This document shows positions 5,009-51,977 of a stretch of 64,000 nucleotides of DNA, in pieces. Position 1 is the first letter of the stretch; the number at the start of each line of letters is the position of its first letter. Made by a program: the position numbers and the translations under genes. The notes under the pieces are model-generated. The model searched no databases. It had not been told where the DNA came from and saw only the letters and a list, made by a program, of their open reading frames with translations. Source of the DNA: Acidobacteria bacterium RIFCSPLOWO2_12_FULL_66_21 (lineage in GTDB: Bacteria > Acidobacteriota > Vicinamibacteria > Vicinamibacterales > 2-12-FULL-66-21); contig MELC01000024.1 in assembly GCA_001767455.1 (NCBI GenBank), forward strand, positions 124,001-188,000. Reading direction: 5' to 3'.

Positions 5009-8000
5009 ATGAACGTTTGTTCAAAGGCCGTCTGGAGCTTTGCTGCGTGCCTGTTGGTGCTGGCGTGCGCCAGCATGCCGGCTTCAGCGCAGACCGTCAC
5101 GACCGGAAACTTGTCGGGAGTTGTGACCGACGCGCAGGGCGGCGTGCTGCCCGGCGCCACCGTGACCGCGACGCACACGCCGACCGGGACGAGCTACGAG
5201 GCGGTGACCGACGCCACCGGCCGCTACACGATGCTCAATGTCCGGGTCGGCCCGTACACGGTCGCCGCGAACATGAGCGGGTTCAGGGCCGACAAGCAGG
5301 AGAACATCGACGTGGCGCTCGGCGCGGAGCGCACGGTCGACTTCAAGCTCCAGCTCGCGTCGGTGACCGAGACGGTCGAGGTTGTCGGGCAGTCGTCGGT
5401 CATGGACCTGTCCCGCGCGGGCACGGCCGACAACATCGCCGGGGCCGTCAAGGACAACCTGCCCACCATCACGCGCAGCATCACCGACATCGCGCGGATC
5501 AGCCCGCTGTTCAACTCGCAGGGCAGCGGCGCGGGCGACGGCGCCTCGGTGCTCTCGGTGGCGGGCAACAGCTATCGCTACAACTCGCTGCAGATCGACG
5601 GCGCCGCGAACAACGACCTGTTCGGGCTCGCGAGCTCCGCGGGCGCACCCGGCGGCACGGCCGAGACGCAGCCGGTCAGCCTGGACGCGATCGCCGAGAT
5701 CCAGCTCGTCGTCTCGCCGTACGACGTCCGGCAGGGTGGCTTCTCCGGCGGCGGCGTGAACGCGGTCACGAAGAGCGGCAGCAACCAGCTGCACGGCACC
5801 GCCTTCTTCTTCGGGCGCAACCAGAACTGGGTCGGCAAGGGCATCACCGACAAGAAGATCTCGACCTTCAAGGACAAGCAGGGGGGCGGCAGCCTCGGCG
5901 GGCCGGTGATCGAGAACAAGGCGTTCTATTTCGCCACGCTCGATTACGGCCGGAAGATGCGCCCGACGGGCTTCTCCGTCAATGCCGGCGGAACGAGGTT
6001 CCTGCAGCCGGCGCTCTTCGATCGGTACATCGCCGATCTGAAGAGCCTCTATAACTACACGCCGGCCTCGGATCCGGGCGGCGAGTTCACGAAGGCCACC
6101 AACAGCAACAAGTACTTCTTCCGCGGCGACTTCAACGTGGCCAAGGGACATCAGCTCACGGTCCGGCACAACTACATCGATGCGTTCAACGACATCGGCA
6201 ACCCGTCGGCGACCTTCTTCGTGACCCCCGACAACTTCTACCGGTACGTCAGCAAGACGAACTCGACGGTGGCCCAGCTCAATTCGCAGTTCGGGAAGGG
6301 CGTGAACGAGCTGCGCTTCACCTACACGCGCGTGCGCGATCATCGTGAGAACCCGATCGGCGCGCCGCCGTTCCCGCAGATGCGGGTCACGCTCGCCTCC
6401 GGCGTCGACGTGCGGTCCGGCACCGAGCAGTTCTCCACGCGCAACGCCATCTTCCAGGACATCATGGAGCTCAACGACGCCTACTCGGTCCTGAAGGGGC
6501 GTCACACGCTGACCGTCGGCACGCACAACGAGTTCCTCAACCTGAAGAACCTGTTCATCCGCGACAACTTCGGCACCTACAGCTTCTCCAGCCTCGCCAA
6601 CTTCGAGGCGGGCCTCGCGCAGGCGTACGATCGCAGCTTTTCGGCGACGAGCGATCCGCAGCAGAAGGCCGAGTTCACGGTCCGGCAGTGGGGCTTCTAC
6701 GCGGGCGATGTGTGGCGCGCCATGCCGCGCTTCACGCTGACCTACGGCGTCCGGCTGGACGCGCCGCGGTTCCCGAAGACGCCGCGGGCCAACCCGATCG
6801 CGACCAACAACTTCGGGTACGCCACCGACGTCGTGCCGAACCAGATTGAATGGTCGCCGCGCGTCGGGTTCAACTACGACCTGTCGGGCAACGGCCGCAC
6901 GCAGGTGCGCGGCGGCGTCGGCGTGTTCACCGGCCGTCCGGCCTACGTGTGGATCTCGAACCAGTACGGCAACACCGGCATCGATTTCACGCGCATCGGC
7001 GCCTCGTTCAACACCAACAACAAGATTCCGTTCGTGACCGATCCGCTCGGACAGCCGACGACCGTGACCGGGGCGGCCGCGGGATCCTTCACGAACGAGA
7101 TTGACGTCATCGACCCGAACTTCAAGTATCCGTCGATCCTGCGGGGCAACTTCGGGTACGACCATACCCTGCCGTTCGGCTTCGTCGGCATCGCGGACTT
7201 CGTGTGGTCGAAGACGATGAAGGACATCAAGTACCAGAACCTGAACTTCCAGCCGGTGGCGGGCGTGACCGGCGTAGGCGGACGTCAGTTCTTCGCGAAG
7301 AAGATCTCGTCGCTGAGCGACGTCATCCTCCTCGAGAATACGAACAAGGGGTACTCGTACAACTTCTCGTACGAAATCCGGCGGCCGTTCAGCCACGGGC
7401 TGTTCATGCAGGGCTCGTACTCGTGGGGCAAGTCGAGGACCATCATGGACGGCACCTCCGACCAGGCCGCATCGAACTGGGGCAACGTGTACGTGCCGGG
7501 CAATCCCAACGACGCGCCGCTCGCGACCTCCAATTTCGATCCGGGGCACCGCATCACGCTGACGGCAAGCTACGACGTGCCGGTCGGGAAAGTCGTGAAG
7601 CCGGTCCTTTCGGTGTTCTACTCGGGCCAGACGGGCCGCCCGTACACGCTAGTGTACAGCCGCGACGTGAACGGCGACGCCCGCGGGTCGAACGACCTGG
7701 TCTACATCCCGACGGCGAACGATAACCTCACCTACACGGGCGGCACCTACCAGGACTTCATCAACTGGATCAACGGGGACGACTGCCTGGCGAGCTACGT
7801 CGGCCAGATCATCCCGCGCAACGCGTGCCGCGCGCCGTGGACCAACCATTTGGACGGCCGCCTGGCGATTCAGCTCCCGTACAAGCGGTTCAAGACGGAA
7901 GTGACGCTGGACGCGTTCAACCTGATCAACCTCGTCAACAGGAAGAAGGGGATCATCCAGTACCCGTTCTTCAACGACATCCTGCAGCCGGGCACGGTCC

Positions 8001-8137
8001 CGACCTCGGTGACGTTGACGGCGCCGCTCACCGGCTACAACATCGGCACGCTCGTGTCGCCGACGTTCAACCGGTTCAGCCGCGACGACCTGCGCTCGCG
8101 CTGGCAGATCCAGCTCGGCGCGCGCATTCGCTTCTAA
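5009..8137 (+). CDS. Oar-like TonB-dependent receptor with carboxypeptidase-regulatory domain
   Basis: 1042 residues. A signal peptide (residues 1-28, ending SMPASAQ) precedes a carboxypeptidase-regulatory-like beta-sandwich at about 35-115 (NLSGVVTDAQGGVLPGATVT). A plug-like region at about 120-260 contains NSYRYNSLQIDGAANND and GGGVNAVTKSGSN. The remainder is an outer-membrane beta barrel rich in alternating aromatic segments that ends in LGARIRF, a typical C-terminal barrel signal. The size and order match the Oar/SusC-like receptors that are greatly expanded in Acidobacteria. The substrate cannot be inferred; oligosaccharide, peptide and siderophore are all possible. It is monocistronic, with terminators on both sides. 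Confidence 0.92.
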   Translation: MNVCSKAVWSFAACLLVLACASMPASAQTVTTGNLSGVVTDAQGGVLPGATVTATHTPTGTSYEAVTDATGRYTMLNVRVGPYTVAANMSGFRADKQENIDVALGAERTVDFKLQLASVTETVEVVGQSSVMDLSRAGTADNIAGAVKDNLPTITRSITDIARISPLFNSQGSGAGDGASVLSVAGNSYRYNSLQIDGAANNDLFGLASSAGAPGGTAETQPVSLDAIAEIQLVVSPYDVRQGGFSGGGVNAVTKSGSNQLHGTAFFFGRNQNWVGKGITDKKISTFKDKQGGGSLGGPVIENKAFYFATLDYGRKMRPTGFSVNAGGTRFLQPALFDRYIADLKSLYNYTPASDPGGEFTKATNSNKYFFRGDFNVAKGHQLTVRHNYIDAFNDIGNPSATFFVTPDNFYRYVSKTNSTVAQLNSQFGKGVNELRFTYTRVRDHRENPIGAPPFPQMRVTLASGVDVRSGTEQFSTRNAIFQDIMELNDAYSVLKGRHTLTVGTHNEFLNLKNLFIRDNFGTYSFSSLANFEAGLAQAYDRSFSATSDPQQKAEFTVRQWGFYAGDVWRAMPRFTLTYGVRLDAPRFPKTPRANPIATNNFGYATDVVPNQIEWSPRVGFNYDLSGNGRTQVRGGVGVFTGRPAYVWISNQYGNTGIDFTRIGASFNTNNKIPFVTDPLGQPTTVTGAAAGSFTNEIDVIDPNFKYPSILRGNFGYDHTLPFGFVGIADFVWSKTMKDIKYQNLNFQPVAGVTGVGGRQFFAKKISSLSDVILLENTNKGYSYNFSYEIRRPFSHGLFMQGSYSWGKSRTIMDGTSDQAASNWGNVYVPGNPNDAPLATSNFDPGHRITLTASYDVPVGKVVKPVLSVFYSGQTGRPYTLVYSRDVNGDARGSNDLVYIPTANDNLTYTGGTYQDFINWINGDDCLASYVGQIIPRNACRAPWTNHLDGRLAIQLPYKRFKTEVTLDAFNLINLVNRKKGIIQYPFFNDILQPGTVPTSVTLTAPLTGYNIGTLVSPTFNRFSRDDLRSRWQIQLGARIRF

Positions 8138-8150
8138 AGCGCCTTACTGC

Positions 8151-8192
8151 CACGAACGGCCCTGCACGCTTCGGTGTGCAGGGCCGTTCGTG
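8151..8192 (+). terminator. Long perfect hairpin after the receptor gene
   Basis: CACGAACGGCCCTGCAC (8151-8167) is followed by an 8-base loop containing TTCG and then its exact reverse complement at 8176-8192, a 17-bp perfect stem starting 14 bases after the stop codon. No long T run follows, so it may act as an RNA 3'-end stabiliser or a bidirectional terminator with the array beside it. Confidence 0.7.
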
Positions 8193-8200
8193 TGTACGGC

Positions 8201-8353
8201 AGTCAACTCCAAATTCCAAACGCCAAACTCCAAAGCCACTCCGAATTCAAAATCTCAAATTCAAACTCCAAACTCCAAACTACCTTTGAAATTTCGAGTT
8301 TGGCCTTTGAAGTTTGGAGTGCCTTTGGAGTTTGGCGTTTGGAATTTGGAGTT
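8201..8353. repeat. Palindromic short-repeat array (CAAACTCCAAATTCC words)
   Basis: The left arm 8205-8242 and the right arm 8316-8353 are reverse complements with one mismatch in 38 positions. Each arm is made of variants of CCAAACTCCAAATTCCAAA. The inner 70 bases continue the same words less regularly. The left end begins AGTCAACTCC, and the right arm runs into the TAA stop of the methyltransferase. It fills the junction between the convergent receptor and methyltransferase genes. Confidence 0.9.
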
Positions 8354-9248
8354 ATCTGCGAAGCCGCGGCGCTACAAGCGCGCGCCGCGTTCTCTCAACG
8401 GCTTCGTTCAAATAATGCTCGTCCATCTCCACGCCGATGAAGTCGAGGCCGAGCTCGGCGGCGGCGACCGCCGTGCTCCCGAGGCCGAGAAACGGATCCA
8501 TCGCGAGCGTGATGCGGGTCAGCCCGTGCAGCTTGAAGCAGTACTCAGGCACGCGGGGCGGGAATGTCGCCGGATGCGGCCGGTCCTTGTCGCGGCTCTG
8601 GATCGTCTCGTACGGGATGAACCAGGCGTTGCCGCGGCACCGCCGGTTGTCGCCACCGCTCCGCCACCGGGCGATGTTCGACTCGTCCTGGTAGCGCACG
8701 CCGATCGCGCGTCGATCGAGCTTCGTCCGGCCGCCCGCCGTGAAGTGGAAGATGAACTCGTGGCAGTCGTTCAGGAACCGATCGCTGTTAATCGGCTTGT
8801 AGTGACCGACGGCGATGTCGCGGTCGAGACCGACAGCCGCGCCGGCCGCGTCCCTGTCGATGGCAATCGACTTCACCCAGTGGATGGTGTTCTGGAGGTG
8901 CAGGTGCCGCCGCGCCGTCTGCGCGACGTCCATCGCCGTCCACGGATCGGTCGGCTTTGCCCCCACATTGAGGAAGAGGCTGCCGTCCTCCGCCAGCGCG
9001 TGGCGCGCCGCGGCCAGCCAGGCGTCGGTCCATTCCAGGTAGTGCTCGCGCGGCAGGGAGTCCTGGTAGGTGCGGTATTGGATGCCGAGGTTGTACGGCG
9101 GGGAAGTGACGATGACGGAGACAGTGCCGGCGGGCAGCGCCTCGAGAAGTTCGACGGAATCGCCGAGGAAGAACCGGAGCTTGCCGCGGCCCGAGTCGAT
9201 CGTGGTGTGTGGTTCCGGAAGCGCGCGACGCTTCCCCGAGATGGGCAT
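8352..9248 (-). CDS. Beta-class DNA (adenine-N6 or cytosine-N4) methyltransferase
   Basis: 298 residues. The catalytic motif TSPPYN is at about residue 49, ahead of the AdoMet-binding motif DPFLGLGST near residue 255, which is the order of the beta class. The intervening region, with HEFIFHFTAG and a variable Arg-rich segment, is the likely target-recognition part. It methylates DNA in a sequence-specific way; the target base (A-N6 or C-N4) is not decidable here. No restriction endonuclease is beside it, so it may be an orphan regulatory methylase. The stop codon lies inside the neighbouring repeat array. The ATG at 9248 precedes residues (MPISGKRRALPEPHTTID) that lead into a normal family start. 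Confidence 0.9.
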   Translation of the reverse strand: MPISGKRRALPEPHTTIDSGRGKLRFFLGDSVELLEALPAGTVSVIVTSPPYNLGIQYRTYQDSLPREHYLEWTDAWLAAARHALAEDGSLFLNVGAKPTDPWTAMDVAQTARRHLHLQNTIHWVKSIAIDRDAAGAAVGLDRDIAVGHYKPINSDRFLNDCHEFIFHFTAGGRTKLDRRAIGVRYQDESNIARWRSGGDNRRCRGNAWFIPYETIQSRDKDRPHPATFPPRVPEYCFKLHGLTRITLAMDPFLGLGSTAVAAAELGLDFIGVEMDEHYLNEAVERTRRALVAPRLRR

Positions 9249-11071: not shown

Positions 11072-11578
11072 GGCGGCGGGCGGTTCGTGAAGCGCGGTGA
11101 ACCGCTCGAGATCGGCCGCGCGCTGCCGCGCGGCGAAGGCGCGGGCGACGCGAATGCGGTTCACGAACAGGAGGTGGAGCACCGCGAGCACCACGATGTC
11201 CCACACCTCGCCGCCGAGCGCCGCCGGCAGGAAGTTGACCGACGCGGCAAGCACGAACACGCGGCTGAAGAGCGCATCGGGACCCGTCCCGGGAAACCGC
11301 TGGCCGAAACTCATCGCGGCCCGCTCCCACTGGTCCTGGTGAAACACCTGGAGGTAGCGGCCGACGCGCTCGACATTGACGTGCAGCGCGAACACCGCTT
11401 CGAAGCCGGCGACGAGCACGAGCAGCGGCACGAGCGTGCTCACGGCGACGGTAATCACGGCGGCGGTCGCGATCGCGGTGCCCGCCCAGCCGATGAAAAC
11501 GATCGGCAGCAAGACCATCCTGGCGGTTCCGCGCTCCCGAATCGTGGCTCGAAGGGCTGAATACTCGTCAGTCATCAT
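11057..11578 (-). CDS. Uncharacterised small integral membrane protein
   Basis: 173 residues with three hydrophobic blocks that could span the membrane: about 20-45 (MVLLPIVFIGWAGTAIATAA), about 47-68 (STLVPLLVLVAGFEAVFALH) and about 115-140 (NFLPAALGGEVWDIVVLAVL). The segment VNVERVGRYLQVF between them is polar. The N-terminus is MMTDEYSALRATIRERG. I do not recognise a named family. The last codons overlap the convergent M20 peptidase gene. A repeat array begins one base upstream of the start codon, so the promoter would have to lie in or beyond the array. Confidence 0.7.
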   Translation of the reverse strand: MMTDEYSALRATIRERGTARMVLLPIVFIGWAGTAIATAAVITVAVSTLVPLLVLVAGFEAVFALHVNVERVGRYLQVFHQDQWERAAMSFGQRFPGTGPDALFSRVFVLAASVNFLPAALGGEVWDIVVLAVLHLLFVNRIRVARAFAARQRAADLERFTALHEPPAASPLG

Positions 11579-11962
11579 AGCTTTCAGCTCTCAGCTCTCA
11601 GCTCTCAGCTCTCAGCGTTCAGCGGGACAAGGCTGATCGCTGATGTCTGTCGTCCCTACCGCCGAGAAAGTACCACAGAAGCTCCCGGCTGGAAGCTGGA
11701 AGCGGGAGCCTGAAAGCTGGAAGCTGGCAACTGGAAGCTGGCAACTGGAAGCTGCCCCATCGTATGGCTGTGGTGGCACCCGGTTTGAATGTCTCAGCCG
11801 ATAGGGGAGTGTAACGGCCCAGGAGCGCCGAAACTCTGACGGCTCAGTTACATAAGTGGTTGCGTGAGGGCTGTTCTGTTGCTAAACTGGCTTCGCTCCA
11901 CTCCTACCGCAGCGGTCGCTTCCCAGCGCAGCCGGTGCGTTAATGTCCCTCACGGAGGACTC
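11579..11962. other. 384-base intergenic region: palindromic array plus D,D-peptidase leader
   Basis: The first part (11579-11756) is a repeat array. CAGCTCTCAG is repeated four to five times on the left, and GCTGGAAGCTGGAAGC / GCTGGCAACTGGAAGC on the right, which is the reverse complement of CAGCTTCCAG words; the halves are imperfect inverted copies. The rest holds a plausible promoter and a roughly 75-base leader for the downstream gene. I see no coding gene. Confidence 0.75.
11860..11888 (+). promoter_or_regulatory. Candidate sigma-70 promoter for the D,D-peptidase
   Basis: TTGCGT (11860-11865), a 17-base spacer and TAAACT (11883-11888) lie 75 bases before the GTG start. Both hexamers deviate from consensus, so this is only a candidate. 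Confidence 0.4.
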
Positions 11963-13066
11963 GTGGCCCTGATTCGCCCTCTGTCGGTTGCCCGTGTGTT
12001 CGCTGTTCTGCTGGGTCTGGGCGTGTGTCTGCCGATGCCGGTGGACGGCGCCCAGAAGCGGCCCACCGGTAAGCCCTCCACCAGTAAGCCGTCCTCGACA
12101 GTTACCCGATCGACGAAGAGCGTCCGGAAGGCGCCCAAGCCCGCGTACTCCGCCTCGGCGTCCAAGGCGCGCAAGGCCCGACTGGCGCGTGCCCGCGCCG
12201 CGGCGCGCATCCGTGAAATGCGCCGGATGGCCGCGCTCAAGGAGGCGATGACGCCGCGGTACAAGACGGACGCCAACGGCGAGCTCGTCCCCGATATCCG
12301 GGCCGCCGCCGCCATCGTCTTCAATCCGGCGAACGGCGAAGTGCTGTGGCAGGAAAACGCGCAGGACAAGCGTTCCATCGCCAGCATCACGAAAGTCATG
12401 ACCGCGGTCGTCTTCCTCGAGGACAGCCCGGATCTGTCGCGCGAAGTGACCGTGGAACGCAGCGACGTGTACGCCGCCTCCACCACGTTTCTGCGAGCCA
12501 ACGAGCGGCTGACCCTCGACAACGTGCTGCACCTGACGCTGATCGCGTCGGACAACGCCGCCGCGCGCGTGCTGGCGCGTGTGTCGCACGGCGGCGCCGC
12601 GTCGTTCGTGGAGCGGATGAACGAGAAGGCGGTCGAGCTGGGCCTGGAGAGCACGACCTTCGCGGATCCCTCGGGTCTCAACCCGGCGAACGTCTCGTCC
12701 GCTTACGATCTATCCCGGCTCATCACGTTTGCGTCGGCCGACGAGCGCATCTCGCCGATCATGCGGATGGCGCAGTACAGCGTCGCGACGAACCGCCGCA
12801 CGATCCCGATCCACAGCACCAACCGGTTGCTGCTGGGGGGAGATGTCGACGTGATGGGCGGGAAGACCGGCTTCATCAGCAAGGCGGGCTACTGCCTCGC
12901 GACCATGCTGCGGCTTCCGCAGGGCAACCAGGTCGCAGTGGTGATCCTCGGCGCCCGATCGAACACCGGACGCTTCTGGGAGACGCGCCACCTGTTCAAT
13001 TGGCTCTCCGACAAGGCGGGCGTACTGTTCGGGAAAACGCCGGAGAAACAGGAATTAGTGCATTAG
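11963..13066 (+). CDS. D-alanyl-D-alanine peptidase, S11 family (PBP7/DacA type)
   Basis: 367 residues. GTG 11963 is preceded by CGGAGG and gives a clean signal peptide (LSVARVFAVLLGLGVCLPMP). A basic, Lys/Arg/Ala-rich linker (about residues 28-95) leads to the serine peptidase domain. The catalytic SxxK is SITK in SIASITKVMT, the second motif is SDN in LIASDNAAAR, and the third is KTG in MGGKTGFIS. It trims or cleaves peptidoglycan stem peptides in the periplasm. The end is short of the usual DacA membrane-anchoring C-terminal domain, which favours a PBP7-like endopeptidase. The last residues (QELVH) and stop are repeat-array sequence. Confidence 0.9.
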   Translation: MALIRPLSVARVFAVLLGLGVCLPMPVDGAQKRPTGKPSTSKPSSTVTRSTKSVRKAPKPAYSASASKARKARLARARAAARIREMRRMAALKEAMTPRYKTDANGELVPDIRAAAAIVFNPANGEVLWQENAQDKRSIASITKVMTAVVFLEDSPDLSREVTVERSDVYAASTTFLRANERLTLDNVLHLTLIASDNAAARVLARVSHGGAASFVERMNEKAVELGLESTTFADPSGLNPANVSSAYDLSRLITFASADERISPIMRMAQYSVATNRRTIPIHSTNRLLLGGDVDVMGGKTGFISKAGYCLATMLRLPQGNQVAVVILGARSNTGRFWETRHLFNWLSDKAGVLFGKTPEKQELVH

Positions 13067-13158
13067 TGAGTTGGTGAGTTGTCTGCGCGAGTCGTCCGTC
13101 GGAGGACTCGCGCAATTCACCAATTCACGAATTCACGACTTCACGAATTCACCAACTT
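13052..13158. repeat. Palindromic short-repeat array (AATTCACGAATTCACC words) with central hairpin
   Basis: The left half has ATTAGTGCATTAGTGAGTTG words. The right half has CAATTCACCAATTCACG repeated, its approximate reverse complement. The centre is a strong hairpin, GCGCGAGTC pairing with GACTCGCGC. The array includes the stop codon of the D,D-peptidase and ends two bases before the stop of the convergent FdhE-like gene. Confidence 0.85.
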
Positions 13159-17070: not shown

Positions 17071-17306
17071 GATAACTTCAAACTACAAACCTCAAACTAC
17101 AAACGCACGTCAAACTACAAACCTCAAACTACGAACCTCAAACTTCAAACTTCAAACTACAAAGTTCAAACTACAAACGGACGTCGAACTACAACCAAAA
17201 AAGCTCAAAGGCGGCGCCTCGAGTCGCATTTTCTGGTTTGGAGTCGTTTGGAGTTTGCAATTTGATTTGCGTTTGGACTTTGCAGTTTGGAGTTTGGAGT
17301 TGACCC
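17071..17306. repeat. Palindromic short-repeat array (TCAAACTACAAACC words)
   Basis: The left half (to about 17190) is a string of TCAAACTACAAACC and CTTCAAACTTCAAAC variants. The right half (about 17240-17304) reads GTTTGGAGTCGTTTGGAG and TTTGGAGTTTGGAGTT, the reverse complement of the same word set. The halves match by word, not base for base. The centre is GC-rich (GGCGGCGCC). It starts right after the trxB stop and ends just outside the mnmA stop. Confidence 0.85.
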
Positions 17307-30445: not shown

Positions 30446-30535
30446 TAGTTTTGAGTTCTGAGTCTTGAGTTGTGAGTTTCAGTTGTGAGTTCTGAGCCAC
30501 TCATAACTCATAACTGATAACTCACAACTGGCAAG
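30446..30535. repeat. Palindromic short-repeat array (GAGTTGTGAGTTCTGAG words)
   Basis: The left half reads TTTTGAGTTCTGAGTCTTGA and on to GTTGTGAGTTCTGAG. The right half, ACTCATAACTCATAACTG and ATAACTCACAACTGG, is the approximate reverse complement. It lies between the sugar transferase stop and the UXS start codon and replaces any normal leader there. Confidence 0.85.
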
Positions 30536-45826: not shown

Positions 45827-48118
45827 ATGCGCCTGGTCCGCGTCGCCGTTCCCGTGCCCGCGCTCGACGCGCTGACGTATTCCGTTCCGGACGGCGTCGC
45901 GGATCCGCCCGTCGGCGCCCGCGTACTGGTGCCCCTCGGTAACCGGATCATCACGGGCTGCGTGCTGGATTCCGAGTCGAGCGCCGAGCGCCGAGCGCCG
46001 AGCGCCCGGGGCGACAACTCCCAACTGTCAAGCCCCAACCTCCAACTCCAAACTTCAAACTCCAAACTCCAAACGTCCAATGCCGGAATCAAGCCGATCA
46101 TCGAGGTCCTCGATGGCGGGCCTTTTCTGCCGACAGACGTTCTGAAGCTCGCGACGTGGGTATCGAACTACTACGCGTGCGGTATCGGCGACGCGATTGC
46201 CGCTGCCATGCCGCCATGGGCCCTGAAGGGCGTTCGGTCCAGGTTCCGCACGACGCGCGTCGCCGCGCTCACGGTGCAGGGACACGACTCGCGGGACCTG
46301 CGGCTCGGCGCCAGGCAGCGGGAAGCGCTCGACCTGCTTGCGGGCTCGCCTGACGGCATGGACACCGCGGAGCTCGCCGAGCGGGGCATCGGCGCCGCGA
46401 CGCTGCGGCGTCTCGCGTCGCTGGGCCTGGTCCGCCTGTCACGGCGCGCCGTCGAGCGCGACCCGTTCCACCGCGGCGCGATGATGAGCGCCGTGGCCCG
46501 CACGCCCCACACGCTGACGGCGGAGCAGGCGGACGCCTTCGAGCAACTGCGCGAGCTCGTGGCGCGGCAGTCCTTCCAGGCCGTGTTGCTGCACGGCGTC
46601 ACCGGCAGCGGGAAGACCGAGCTCTACCTGCGTCTTGCCGAGGAAGTCCGCCGGCTCGGACGCGGCGTCCTGCTGCTCGTGCCGGAGATCGCGCTCACGC
46701 CGGCGGTCGCGGGTCTGTTTCGCGCGGCCTTCGGCCAGCGGGTGGCGATCCAGCACAGCGGCCTGTCCGACGGCGAGCGTCACGACCAGTGGCAGCGCAT
46801 CCGCCGCGGCGAGGTCGACGTCGTGGTTGGCACCCGGTCGGCCGTGTTCGCCCCGCTCCCTTCGATCGGCCTGATCATCGTCGACGAGGAGCACGACGGC
46901 TCGTACAAGCAGGAAGAGAGCCCGCGCTATCACGGCAGGGACGTGGCGGTCGTGCGCGCGCGCGAGTCGGCCGCGCTCGTGGTGCTCGGCTCGGCCACGC
47001 CGGCGATGGAGAGCTTCCAGAACGCGCAATCCGGCCGCTACACGCTGCTGTCGCTCGAAAGGCGGGTGCTCGACCGCCCGATGGCCGCCGTGCGCATCGT
47101 CGACATGCGCGAGGAGTACGCGGCAGCGGGGCCCGATGTGACGCTCAGCGCGACATTGACCGAGGCGCTCGCCGAACGTCTCGAGCGGCGCGAGCAGGCC
47201 ATCGTGCTGCTGAACCGCCGCGGATTCGCGACCGCTGTGTTCTGCCGGCAGTGCGCCGCGACGCTGGAATGCCCGAACTGCAGCGTGACGCTGACCGTCC
47301 ATCGCGCCGCGCGCCGGGCGCGCTGCCACTACTGCAACTATTCAACGGGGATCCCGAAGACCTGCGCCCACTGCGCGGGTCCGTATCTGGAGCAGACCGG
47401 GTTCGGGACGGAGCGGATCGAGGCGGACATCCGGGAGCGGTTCCCGGCGGCGCGCGTCGCGCGGGTCGATCGCGACACGGTCCGGAAGCGCGGCGCCATC
47501 GCCGGCGTGCTGGAGCGCTTCGCGGAAGGGGAGCTCGACGTGCTCGTCGGCACGCAGATGATTGCGAAGGGACACGACTTCCCGCGCGTGACGCTCGTCG
47601 GCGTGATTTCAGCCGACGTCGGCCTTGGCCTGGCGGACTTCCGCGCCGGTGAACGGACCTTTCAGCTGCTGACCCAGGTGGCGGGGCGCGCGGGGCGCGG
47701 CGAGATTCCCGGCGAAGCGATCGTGCAGACGCTCTATCCGCACCACTACAGCATCCGGCACGCCTGCCGCCAGGACTACCAGTCGTTCTTCGCGGAGGAA
47801 CTGGCGTTCCGCACGGCGATGCGCTACCCGCCGGCCGTCGCCCTCATCAACGTCATCGTCAAGGCGCGCACCGAGCAGGCGGCGATGGAGGACGCCGGAG
47901 CGCTGGCCGGCGCGCTGCGCATCGGCGGCGAGCCTTACCGCGTGCTGGGGCCCGCCCCCGCGCCTCTGAGCCGGCTGAAAGGGGAGCACCGCGCGCAGTT
48001 CTTCATCAAGGGCACGCACCGCACGTCCATGAAGAACGCGCTCGTGACGGTCCTTGCCTCGCGCCCCGAGATTCGGCGACGGACGATCGTGGATGTTGAT
48101 CCGATGAGCGTCCTGTGA
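45827..48118 (+). CDS. priA: Primosomal replication-restart helicase PriA
   Basis: 763 residues. The N-terminal DNA-binding domain (1-140) contains ALTYSVPDG and VLVPLGNRIITGCVLD. Walker A GVTGSGKTELYLRL is near 257, the DEEH box in LIIVDEEHDGSYKQEESPRY near 352, and the zinc-binding cysteines CRQC, CPNC, CHYC and CAHC near 474-515. The helicase motif GTQMIAKGHDFPRVTLVG and a C-terminal domain follow. It reloads the replisome at stalled forks. Oddity: residues of about 45-86 are translated from repeat-array DNA (SNSKLQTSNAG) and look like an in-frame insertion between two strands of the N-terminal domain. Confidence 0.95.
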   Translation: MRLVRVAVPVPALDALTYSVPDGVADPPVGARVLVPLGNRIITGCVLDSESSAERRAPSARGDNSQLSSPNLQLQTSNSKLQTSNAGIKPIIEVLDGGPFLPTDVLKLATWVSNYYACGIGDAIAAAMPPWALKGVRSRFRTTRVAALTVQGHDSRDLRLGARQREALDLLAGSPDGMDTAELAERGIGAATLRRLASLGLVRLSRRAVERDPFHRGAMMSAVARTPHTLTAEQADAFEQLRELVARQSFQAVLLHGVTGSGKTELYLRLAEEVRRLGRGVLLLVPEIALTPAVAGLFRAAFGQRVAIQHSGLSDGERHDQWQRIRRGEVDVVVGTRSAVFAPLPSIGLIIVDEEHDGSYKQEESPRYHGRDVAVVRARESAALVVLGSATPAMESFQNAQSGRYTLLSLERRVLDRPMAAVRIVDMREEYAAAGPDVTLSATLTEALAERLERREQAIVLLNRRGFATAVFCRQCAATLECPNCSVTLTVHRAARRARCHYCNYSTGIPKTCAHCAGPYLEQTGFGTERIEADIRERFPAARVARVDRDTVRKRGAIAGVLERFAEGELDVLVGTQMIAKGHDFPRVTLVGVISADVGLGLADFRAGERTFQLLTQVAGRAGRGEIPGEAIVQTLYPHHYSIRHACRQDYQSFFAEELAFRTAMRYPPAVALINVIVKARTEQAAMEDAGALAGALRIGGEPYRVLGPAPAPLSRLKGEHRAQFFIKGTHRTSMKNALVTVLASRPEIRRRTIVDVDPMSVL
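45967..46083. repeat. Repeat array inside the priA reading frame
   Basis: GAGCGCC is repeated four to five times (45972-46007), followed by CCAACCTCCAACTCCAAACT and CTCCAAACTCCAAACG. The second part is the same word family as the junction arrays at 8201, 17071 and 51371. The total keeps the priA frame open. Confidence 0.85.
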
Positions 48119-48629
48119 GACGCAAGCGGTGAAATGTCGAACGCAGACCGTTAAACGTAGAACGCGAAATCACCAAGGACCGGACATTCTAGGTTCGTCT
48201 CTGTGTAACGTGTCGAGAGATCCAGCGGTCGTGTCCCGCTGCACGCGCCGACGGCTTTCATTGCACGAAGACCACGAAGCTCACGAAGTTCACGAAGACT
48301 GCAAGACAGCAAGACAGAAGAACAGCACGAAGCGGGCGGGAGTACTGATACGGCTGGACCGTCGAGCGCCGGCCACAATCACGCCTGAGGCCGGCGGTGC
48401 AGGACAGCCGGAACCCGCAAATGCAAACAGCTCGGGATCGAATGCTGCTTGCGTTTGCGGGTTCCGACTGTCCTTGCCGCGCTGCGCGCGGCTCGACGGT
48501 TCAGCCCGCTGCGTGAGTGTCTTCGTGACCTTGGTGTCCTTCGTGAGCTTCCTGAAAAGCCGTGGCCTGTCTCAGCGTGGTTCCGGGAGAACCTCGCTGA
48601 ACGAAGACCTAAGTTCTACATTCTACGTT
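48119..48629. repeat. 511-base nested palindromic junction without a supported gene
   Basis: Matching inverted pairs are nested from the outside in. ACGTAGAACGC words (48125-48170) face TTCTACATTCTACG (48611-48630). CACGAAGACCACGAAGCTCA (48264-48300) faces GTCTTCGTGACCTTGGTG (48517-48545). TGGACCGTCGAGCG faces GCTCGACGGTTCAG. CAGGACAG plus GGAACCCGCAAATGCAAA face TTTGCGGGTTCCG plus CTGTCC. The junction is convergent (priA and the M50 protease). Open frames crossing it show no family features. Confidence 0.85.
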
Positions 48630-50019: not shown

Positions 50020-51372
50020 ATGTCCCTGAAACGCGCCTCGGCCGGACCCACGGTCGTGCTTGTCGGCCGGCCCAACGTCGGAAAGTCCACGCTCTTCAAC
50101 CGCATCACGAATTCGCGGCGCTCCATTGTCACGTCCATCGCAGGCACGACTCGCGACGTCATTTCTCTGCCCGCCGAGTGGCAGGGGACCACGTTCACGC
50201 TCGTGGACACCGGGGGAATGTTCGGCGCGAGCGAGGATCCGCTGCACGAGCTGGTGGTGATTGCGGGGCGCCGCGCGCTCGAGACGGCCGACGTTGTCGT
50301 GTTCGTGGTGGACGGCCGGGAAGGGCTCGTGCCAGCCGATCAGGAGATTGCCGCCGGCCTGCGGTCCGTCGCCGTGCCTGTCCTGATGGCGGTGAACAAG
50401 ACCGACGACAAGCGCGCGCGGGGACGGTCGGCCGAGTTCTACCAGCTCGGTTTTGAGCCGGTGGTCGAACTGGCGGCCGAGCACGGCGAAGGCGTCGGGG
50501 ACCTGCTCGACGAGATCATCCAGCGGTTTCCGGCGCGGCGGGGCCTCGGCGAGTCCCCGGACAGGCCCGAACAGACGGCCGTGGCGATCGTGGGACGGCC
50601 GAACGTCGGCAAGTCATCGCTCCTCAACCGGTTGCTGCGAGAGGAACGCTCCATCGTCAGCGACACGCCGGGCACCACGCGGGACACGGTCGACGCGGTC
50701 CTCAAATGGCATCACCGCATCTTCCGCATCGTGGATACGGCCGGAATCAGGCGGGCGGGGCGCGTGGCGCGCAGCGGCCAGCTCGAATCCCTGAGCGTCA
50801 TCCTCGCGCGGCGCGCGATCGAGCAGGCGGATGTCGCGGTGCTCATCGTGGACAGTTCCGAAGGAGCCGCCGACCAGGACGCGACGATCGCCGGCGAAGC
50901 GGAAAAGGCGGGCTGCGGGATCATCATCGCCGCGAACAAGTGGGACCTGATGAAGGGACGCGGCCCGGATTTCTCGAAGGAGTTCGACGACCAGCTTCGG
51001 CAGCAGATGAAGTTCCTCGATTACGCGCCGATCCTGCACATTTCGGCCTCCACCGGGGAACGGACGCCGAAGCTGCTCGAGACGATCGACAAGGTGGCTG
51101 AGGCGCGGGTGAAGCGGATTTCGACCGGCGAGCTGAACCGGTTCATTCAGGCCGTGACCGCCGTGCACCCGCCGGCCAGCCCCGGCAAGCGCGAGGTGCG
51201 CATCATGTATGCGACGCAGAAGGGCGTCGCGCCGCCGACCTTCGTGCTGTTCACGAACATCGCGACAGAGTTTCACTTCTCCTACCAGCGGTTCCTCGTC
51301 AATCGCCTGCGCGAGTCGTTCGGGTTCATAGGCACGCCCATACGGCTGCAGGTCAGGAAGAGGGAACGATAG
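50020..51372 (+). CDS. der: Ribosome-assembly GTPase Der (EngA)
   Basis: 450 residues with two tandem G domains and a KH-like C-terminal domain, the unique Der layout. G domain 1 has GRPNVGKSTLFNRI near residue 13 and VDTGGMF near 64. G domain 2 has GRPNVGKSSLLNRL near 192, DTAGIRR near 241 and NKWD near 307. The KH-like domain begins near 355 with TGELNRFIQAVTA. It is needed for 50S subunit maturation. It is divergent from HU. Its TAG stop is the first bases of the inverted-repeat-bounded element at 51371-51977. Confidence 0.95.
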   Translation: MSLKRASAGPTVVLVGRPNVGKSTLFNRITNSRRSIVTSIAGTTRDVISLPAEWQGTTFTLVDTGGMFGASEDPLHELVVIAGRRALETADVVVFVVDGREGLVPADQEIAAGLRSVAVPVLMAVNKTDDKRARGRSAEFYQLGFEPVVELAAEHGEGVGDLLDEIIQRFPARRGLGESPDRPEQTAVAIVGRPNVGKSSLLNRLLREERSIVSDTPGTTRDTVDAVLKWHHRIFRIVDTAGIRRAGRVARSGQLESLSVILARRAIEQADVAVLIVDSSEGAADQDATIAGEAEKAGCGIIIAANKWDLMKGRGPDFSKEFDDQLRQQMKFLDYAPILHISASTGERTPKLLETIDKVAEARVKRISTGELNRFIQAVTAVHPPASPGKREVRIMYATQKGVAPPTFVLFTNIATEFHFSYQRFLVNRLRESFGFIGTPIRLQVRKRER

Positions 51373-51977
51373 TCAATTCCAAACTCCAAACTCCAAACTC
51401 CAAACTCCAAACTCCAAAGGCACTCCAAACTCCAAAGGCACTCCAAACTCCAAAGGCACTCCAAACTCCAAACGGTTCATTTGCCTTCGGACCTGCGGAT
51501 GATCGCTGCGACGATCTTCATGAGTTCCTCAGCTTCAATAAGCACGGGGTCATGGATCTGCGCGAGGAACCCGGTTTTGCGCAGGATTCGGAGGCGAAAT
51601 CTGGTCTCCTTGAGTTCGCGCAGCGTGATCTTCCTTTTCGCCCACCGGTCACGCTCGCTTGATGCGCTGTCGGCCTCCTCATAGTTGGCCCCGGCCGACG
51701 TCCCGCACCTCAATAGTTGCCCTGAAAGTTCAACCGCGACCGGACCGCGGGTGTGCAGGTACTGCACCAGCCGAACGACCGTGCACCCAAAGAGAAGTAG
51801 CCTTTCGCGCACATCGTAAGGCTTTTTCGGAATGTTCCAATCTGATTCGTCCATGTACCAGCACCGTCCGTGCCACATGCCAGTTGACAAGATCTGATCT
51901 GGATTTTGGAATTTGAACTTTGGAATTTGAATTGTGAAGTGCGTTTGGAGTTTGGAATTTGGAGTTTGGAATTGACT
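51371..51977. mobile_element. Element with inverted array ends and an S23-type ORF (proposed)
   Basis: The outer 35 bases at each end (51371-51405 and 51943-51977) are reverse complements with one mismatch. Both begin AGTCAATTCC, then CAAACTCC-type repeats. The left array runs to about 51475 and includes three copies of CACTCCAAACTCCAAAGG. The right array runs from about 51899. Between them is a single ORF for a four-helix-bundle protein. The ends overlap the stop codons of der on the left and the kinase on the right. There is no transposase. Calling it mobile is inference from structure; what is seen is the inverted ends, the ORF and the same words at other junctions. Confidence 0.55.
51477..51854 (-). 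CDS. Four-helix-bundle protein (S23 / 23S rRNA intervening-sequence family)
   Basis: 125 residues from the ATG at 51854 (MDESDWNIPKKPYDVRERLL); an ATG at 51878 is the alternative. LLLFGCTVVRLVQYLHTRGP, the core LLRCGTSAGANYEEADSAS near residue 50, and KITLRELKETRFRLRILRKT near 75 match the small all-helical S23 family. The family is known from ORFs in 23S rRNA intervening sequences, and its fold resembles the Avd accessory protein of diversity-generating retroelements. The molecular role is unknown, and oligomeric nucleic-acid binding is suspected. Here it is not in an rRNA gene but between inverted repeat arrays, and its TGA abuts the left array. Confidence 0.88.
   Translation of the reverse strand: MDESDWNIPKKPYDVRERLLLFGCTVVRLVQYLHTRGPVAVELSGQLLRCGTSAGANYEEADSASSERDRWAKRKITLRELKETRFRLRILRKTGFLAQIHDPVLIEAEELMKIVAAIIRRSEGK

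Follow-up and report, generated by a model that had tools for sequence, protein, structure and literature searches.

A heptamer-armed hairpin between protein genes of an acidobacterium, probably an ORF-less copy of an IVS-like element

The closest described systems are rRNA IVSs that carry an S23p ORF. According to PMC4990558, the 23S IVS of Coxiella is 428 nt long, has a 28-bp terminal stem, is cut by RNase III and contains an S23p ORF; before this ORF stand GACAGAT heptamers, two or three of them depending on the strain. The same source describes S23p of Xanthomonas as a homopentamer whose subunits are four-helix bundles. PF05635 is described as resembling Avd (PMC10053308). Dispersed, intergenic heptamer arrays are known as GGGAATC in Xanthomonas and GGGGA(C/T)T in Anabaena and Nostoc (PMC4692102). 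The GGGAATC arrays form 70 (Xcc) and 75 (Xac) inverted pairs, lie near ORF ends with divergent junctions under-represented, and were discussed as G-quadruplexes by authors who left their role undecided (PMC4692102). The main text of that paper contains neither of the terms ‘S23’ and ‘four helix’, and draws no link to an S23 gene. A literature search on S23/IVP genes with heptamer arrays outside rRNA, in which subscription journals were thinly covered, found no paper linking the two.

We analysed a window of 64,000 nucleotides of Acidobacteria bacterium RIFCSPLOWO2_12_FULL_66_21 (GCA_001767455.1, contig MELC01000024.1, positions 124,001 to 188,000). A preliminary description of the sequence had drawn attention to a hairpin at 8201-8353, here delimited as 8202-8356. 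We conclude, with a probability of about 0.72, that this hairpin represents a miniature copy, devoid of an ORF, of an IVS-like element inserted between protein genes, an element whose copies would spread and whose stem would be cut. The features of the locus are as follows.

5009-8137, + strand: left neighbour gene, CarboxypepD_reg and OMP_b-brl_4 (TonB-type outer-membrane protein)
8151-8192, + strand: neighbouring hairpin outside the element, a perfect 17-bp GC-rich stem (8151-8167/8176-8192), terminator-like, 3′ of the outer-membrane gene
8202-8356, no strand: hairpin element with ends GTCAACTCC... and, on the other strand, GATAACTCC..., without an S23/IVP gene
8205-8242, no strand: left arm of the hairpin, C-rich heptamers of CCAAACT type
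8243-8315, no strand: inner part and loop of the hairpin, with more imperfect heptamers and an inner stem
8316-8353, no strand: right arm of the hairpin, G-rich heptamers of AGTTTGG type, 37 of 38 positions complementary to the left arm
8352-9248, - strand: right neighbour gene, N6_N4_Mtase DNA methylase

The arms lie where the preliminary description had placed them, with 8236 as the sole mismatch in 38 positions, and they are internally repetitive as it had said, both being 7-bp tandem arrays. Beyond this core the pairing continues imperfectly, giving 67-nt arms that are 82% matched. The hairpin folds as RNA with an MFE of -93.8 kcal/mol (z -12.9; 0 of 200 shuffles equally good), and with DNA parameters at z -12.4. 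The junction is indeed convergent: the outer-membrane gene (+) ends at 8137 and the methylase gene (-) at 8352, the stop codon of the latter (8352-8354) falling in the end of the right arm. The GC content of 8201-8300 is 38%. An Rfam scan of the window at the gathering score returned only a single tRNA, with no match to the hairpin and no rRNA. Because the hairpin lies outside rRNA it is not a 23S rRNA IVS; what we propose is a shared architecture and a kinship with such IVSs. Two observations go beyond the preliminary description, namely the separate 17-bp hairpin at 8151-8192 and the membership of 8202-8356 in a large dispersed family.

When the organism's own genome (6.48 Mb, 91 contigs) was searched with 8190-8370 as query, 97 matches were obtained, which we grouped into at least 39 sites; this number is a lower bound because scoring covered 40 of the 88 candidates and the matches listed did not include the window's copy at 17074-17301. 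The window holds two further members or relatives of the family.

17074-17301, no strand: further hairpin of the CCAAACT/AGTTTGG family, with AAACTAC/AAACTCC words
46015-46080, no strand: single C-rich array of related words, with no partner arm found nearby

In 32 four-kb loci, two whole contigs and the window there were 46 clusters of CCAAACT/AGTTTGG words, 34 two-armed and 12 one-armed. The order of the arms is fixed, the C-rich arm coming first in all 34 two-armed clusters and the reverse order occurring in 0 of the 46. The copies share their ends, with the consensus GWYAAYTCC over 72 ends, in which the anchor AAYTCC is preceded by G (58%), A/T (78%) and C/T (82%). They also share a break in the heptamer rhythm, of AAAGGCACTCC type, found in 22 of 33 complete hairpins; cluster L040:181-278, which has another word, was excluded from the 33-copy break and arm tests and kept among the 46 clusters and the 32 hairpins considered below. 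No target-site duplication was found in 28 element pairs, no length or offset class standing clearly above shuffles. Among 162 genomes of the order, the sequence CTCCAAACTCCAAACTCCAAA is present in one, that of the window itself.

By junction, the 32 simple complete hairpins comprise 17 convergent, 14 tandem and 1 divergent, against 64, 174 and 98 respectively for genome gaps of at least 60 bp (Fisher, convergent excess p 5e-5, divergent deficit p 6e-4); these classes come from a codon-usage gene caller written for the analysis, and the count leaves out 2 of the 46 clusters, which lacked genes on both sides. Most hairpins begin within 2-19 bases of a stop codon, and where the genes converge this often holds at both ends of the hairpin.

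Arrays of other sequences are also present. In the window, words of 6 to 8 bp make up hairpins or facing arrays at 452-620 (GTCAAAGTCC), 11575-11754 (AGCTCTC/GCTGGAA), 13060-13155 (GGTGAATT) and 30447-30529 (AGTTCTG/ACTCATA). Facing arrays of the 9-bp word CACGAAGNN, at 48264-48299 and 48521-48555 and again at C38:41178-41511 (L047:1178-1511), are about 220-260 bp apart and represent a second kind of spaced inverted array.

One relative of the hairpin within the window contains a gene, and its parts are listed here.

51372-51976, no strand: ORF-bearing relative of the hairpin, with the same ends GTCAATTCC and CCAAACT/AGTTTGG arms
51378-51473, no strand: left arm, with three breaks of the type shared with the complete hairpins
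51477-51854, - strand: S23/IVP gene, 125 aa, four-helix-bundle, PF05635 and TIGR02436
51900-51973, no strand: right arm

The element begins in the stop codon of an engA-type gene (50020-51372). Its own gene passes the cut-offs of both PF05635 (37.1 bits, cut-off 33.8) and TIGR02436 (56.9 bits, cut-off 24). An AF2 model of the protein (pLDDT 94.6) is predicted to be a four-helix bundle, with the S23-family structure 2rld as best match (TM 0.78/0.90) and with 2gsc and Avd 4dwl (TM 0.71/0.81) less close. The protein is divergent, at 18% to the first row of A1; the closest by identity (67%) is the frameshifted L165 of another family, whose arms consist of CCCAACT, one base from CCAAACT. S23/IVP is the only gene in the loop, with no known transposase there, and S23 is to our knowledge not itself a known transposase. 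Movement borne by a reverse transcriptase, considered by analogy with Avd, was rejected because the genome contains no reverse transcriptase (RVT_1) match.

The junctions occupied by these two elements were compared with those of relatives. The convergent methylase/outer-membrane junction is kept; in L290 and L306 a GC-rich terminator-like hairpin, comparable to 8151-8192, is all that stands there, L288 and L289 carry arrays built of other words, and L291 carries 9-bp words. GC-rich hairpins comparable to 8151-8192 were seen at the matching junction of L289 as well as of L290 and L306. At the engA junction, L276, L278, L280 and L282 have apparently the same convergent neighbour without the S23 element, the sequences having been read by eye. 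In L274 (G005) the engA stop is followed by a different inverted array hairpin, of GATTGCCAA-like words; in L282 (G010) it is followed by a hairpin containing GGGGACAGTCCCC, unlike the heptamer arrays. Presence and absence at kept junctions therefore indicate that elements are gained and lost, and that one junction can hold different elements. The hairpin at 8151-8192 is probably the true terminator of the outer-membrane gene. Termination as the main role of 8202-8356 was rejected, since 8151-8192 fills that place and similar hairpins stand alone in L290 and L306; the element does not have the G+C-rich stem and T-run of an intrinsic terminator, and inspection of the sequence found no T-run after either arm.

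The association between S23/IVP genes and inverted arrays extends well beyond this element. The genome has four PF05635 loci, one of them frameshifted, and all four have a heptamer array within 250 bp, the words differing; three are flanked by arrays on either side, and the fourth is close to the end of its contig. PF05635 occurs in 105 of 162 genomes of the order. The order set consisted of 34 loci, the 4 of the genome itself and the 30 best of the order (L132 was dropped as occupying the same place as L131, and L133 was located by contig coordinates irrespective of strand, which leaves the flanking arrays unaffected). Inverted flanks were present at 27 of these 34 loci compared with 1 of 1500 random windows, and a period-7 array on at least one side at 29 of 34 compared with 83 of 1500; three of the five loci without one (L155, L158 and L161) have 8- or 9-bp words. 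Arms reached the match threshold in 79% of cases when taken from one locus and in 2.6% when taken from different loci of the 34. Thus the word changes and the pairing stays.

A multi-phylum set of 80 loci from named genomes, of which 78 were usable (L237 and L253 had too little flank), gave inverted flanks at 37 of 78 loci at the strict threshold, compared with 1 of 137 control windows drawn from those loci, and at 52 of 78 at a looser one, so that 41 and 26 loci respectively fell below. At threshold, G010 had inverted flanks at 6 of 8 and G014 at 4 of 8 loci given. The words around S23 genes are 7 to 9 bases long and differ by locus. Word similarity followed protein similarity in the same orientation (Mantel r 0.30, 0 of 999 permutations) and not in the opposite one (r -0.01), in a test from which 43 of 134 loci were excluded for want of a clearly periodic arm and which included both L157 and L210, which share a contig. 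Between the order set and the named-genome set, which have one locus in common, r was 0.20 against a permutation maximum of 0.19. In three genomes, arrays matching the arms of the genome's own S23 loci occurred at 19.4, 6.3 and 3.8 per Mb, and those matching S23-locus arms of other genomes at 0.2, 1.2 and 0.0 per Mb; the own-arm counts for L130 (24) and L313 (2) are too high because they include those loci's own arrays, and the means cover the 12 of 20 loci given that had a strict-threshold array, with L323/L324 of G014 (one broken copy) outside. For many array words of the genome, no S23 gene was found with them.

Two side observations concern the arms themselves. Read in gene orientation, the upstream arm in L133-L272 is mostly purine-rich (AGGAGTC and AGTAGGC types), like repeated ribosome-binding sites; the CCAAACT lineage of the window is an exception. 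In the cyanobacterium Sphaerospermopsis (L196) an ACTGGGG array, which we take to be STRR-like, lies 250 bases before the S23 gene, and CTCCTGA arrays stand on both sides of the gene in direct order, not inverted.

The preliminary description had argued that slippage alone would not keep two arms complementary, and had offered selection on a stem, inversion-duplication or copying between arms as causes. Its argument against slippage alone holds, as does the idea that pairing is kept, both arms sharing the word across loci with different words. Its list of causes did not include a dispersed element with the two arms as its inverted ends, and stem selection or arm-to-arm copying is allowed in a weak form, not required. 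Over 38 nt in the 33 complete copies, identity between a copy's own arms averages 75.7%, compared with 73.0% for arms of different copies; the 37/38 of hairpin 8202-8356 is the best of the 33, and 2 of 1056 cross-copy pairs also reach it. The excess for own partners was equalled in 1 of 5000 permutations, and duplex energy was better with the own partner on both strands (z -3.4 and -3.1). The small difference between own and swapped arms means that common descent of the arms explains most of their likeness. The 37/38 match is mostly shared family sequence. The own-partner excess is small but real, and weak pair-specific stem selection or arm-to-arm copying may account for it. Strong selection for perfect arms is unsupported, own arms being barely better than swapped ones, and in paralogous copies the two arms have for the most part changed independently of each other, a result that speaks against strong stem selection.

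These results bear on the possibility that the hairpin is a functional RNA stem under selection, acting in 3′-end processing or as a stabilising or terminating hairpin, with no mobile element involved. Such a stem would account for the junction counts, for the position a few bases from stop codons and for the slightly better pairing of own arms. It is nevertheless unlikely, since the junction already has a GC-rich terminator-like hairpin, which relatives lacking the element also possess, neither arm is followed by a T-run, CTCCAAACTCCAAACTCCAAA is confined to a single genome of the order, and in most copies the match between the arms is only about 76%.

Alternatively, each hairpin might have arisen in place, if slippage with a 7-bp period was combined with template switching or with an inverted (fold-back) duplication. 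A strong preference for period 7 is seen in the window and contigs C30 and C38, where such arrays number 141 per Mb and those of periods 4 and 5 about 3; period-7 arrays reach 92 and 138 per Mb in G010 and G014. Heptamers are over-represented in many bacteria, for which slippage has been proposed (PMC4679880, PMC4692102), and single-sided arrays exist. Local origin would be expected to give both arm orders, however, and the dispersed copies share words, ends, polarity and the break in rhythm; together with the ORF-bearing copies and the junctions that have no element, this makes it very unlikely. A REP/REPIN-type element moved by a Y1 (RAYT-like) transposase would fit short dispersed intergenic palindromes near gene ends and the 3 Y1_Tnp matches in the genome, but is highly improbable and was rejected as an identity, since 0 of 3 Y1 loci have a CCAAACT array (one has a single CGTGGCT array), the arms are heptamer arrays with GWYAAYTCC ends, and arrays flank S23 genes instead.

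On the preferred reading, that of an IVS-like element with a miniature form, the full form would consist of two inverted arms of tandem 7-bp words around an S23/IVP four-helix-bundle gene, and the miniature form would retain the arms only. Copies would spread as units, the S23 protein together with other host functions presumably acting on arms of the matching word. The transcribed stem would be cut by RNase III as in rRNA IVSs, and the small harm done behind a stop codon may be why copies are retained at such sites. The arms would be complementary because they form the two ends of a single element; selection or homogenisation acting on individual pairs would have contributed weakly at a later stage. 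Both the movement of copies and the recognition of the word by the protein are what we infer from the patterns described above. Several points count against the element reading: one ORF copy would have to serve about 39 sites, there is no target-site duplication in the pairs compared, the S23 protein is divergent and its family not known to act as a transposase, the genome has no reverse transcriptase match, many of its array words came with no S23 gene, and 41 of the 78 multi-phylum loci stay below the strict arm threshold (26 below the looser one).

The ORF-bearing copy suggests an origin for many puzzling bacterial 7-base repeats. It is possible, though doubtful, that much of the excess of intergenic 7-bp arrays (Xanthomonas GGGAATC, cyanobacterial STRR-type) represents arms or fossils of a wide class of mobile elements that includes rRNA IVSs, in which S23 would be the only gene and would recognise its own word on the stem, and in which the word would drift in both arms together to give a new word family in each lineage, without a known transposase. 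If so, rRNA IVSs would be the best-known members of that class. The hairpin family joins two puzzles, the purpose of the S23/IVP protein and of IVSs, and the origin of abundant intergenic heptamer repeats. Dozens of arm pairs with different words offer a natural series for studying recognition of the word by the protein, joint arm evolution and mobility.

Compared with known systems, the hairpins resemble REP/BIME/REPIN sequences with RAYT in being intergenic, palindromic, near stop codons and present in many copies; they differ in ends and build, and Y1 genes are not associated with them. The modelled fold of the element's protein is the same as that of Avd of diversity-generating retroelements (PDB 4dwl), although, unlike Avd systems, the genome has no reverse transcriptase match. 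Like MITEs, the elements are short, have no transposase gene, occur in many dispersed copies and share inverted ends with an ORF-bearing relative. Unlike MITEs, they showed no target duplication, their partner has no known transposase, their arms are tandem repeats and their word varies by lineage. The GGGAATC arrays of Xanthomonas, as described in PMC4692102, are likewise dispersed, intergenic, arranged in inverted pairs near ORF ends and rare at divergent junctions; they consist of another word, and in that paper they are not linked to S23 genes. The elements differ from rRNA IVSs in lying between protein genes, in having dozens of ORF-less copies and arms made wholly of heptamers, and in that RNase III cutting is only presumed. 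Stem-forming arms are common to both, and an S23p ORF is present in 51372-51976 only, not in 8202-8356. As in the rRNA IVSs with an S23p ORF described from Coxiella, Leptospira, Xanthomonas and Brucella (PMC4990558), a complementary terminal stem is combined with an optional small S23/IVP ORF, and as in the Coxiella IVS the size is similar (605 bp for 51372-51976) and tandem heptamers stand at the arm.
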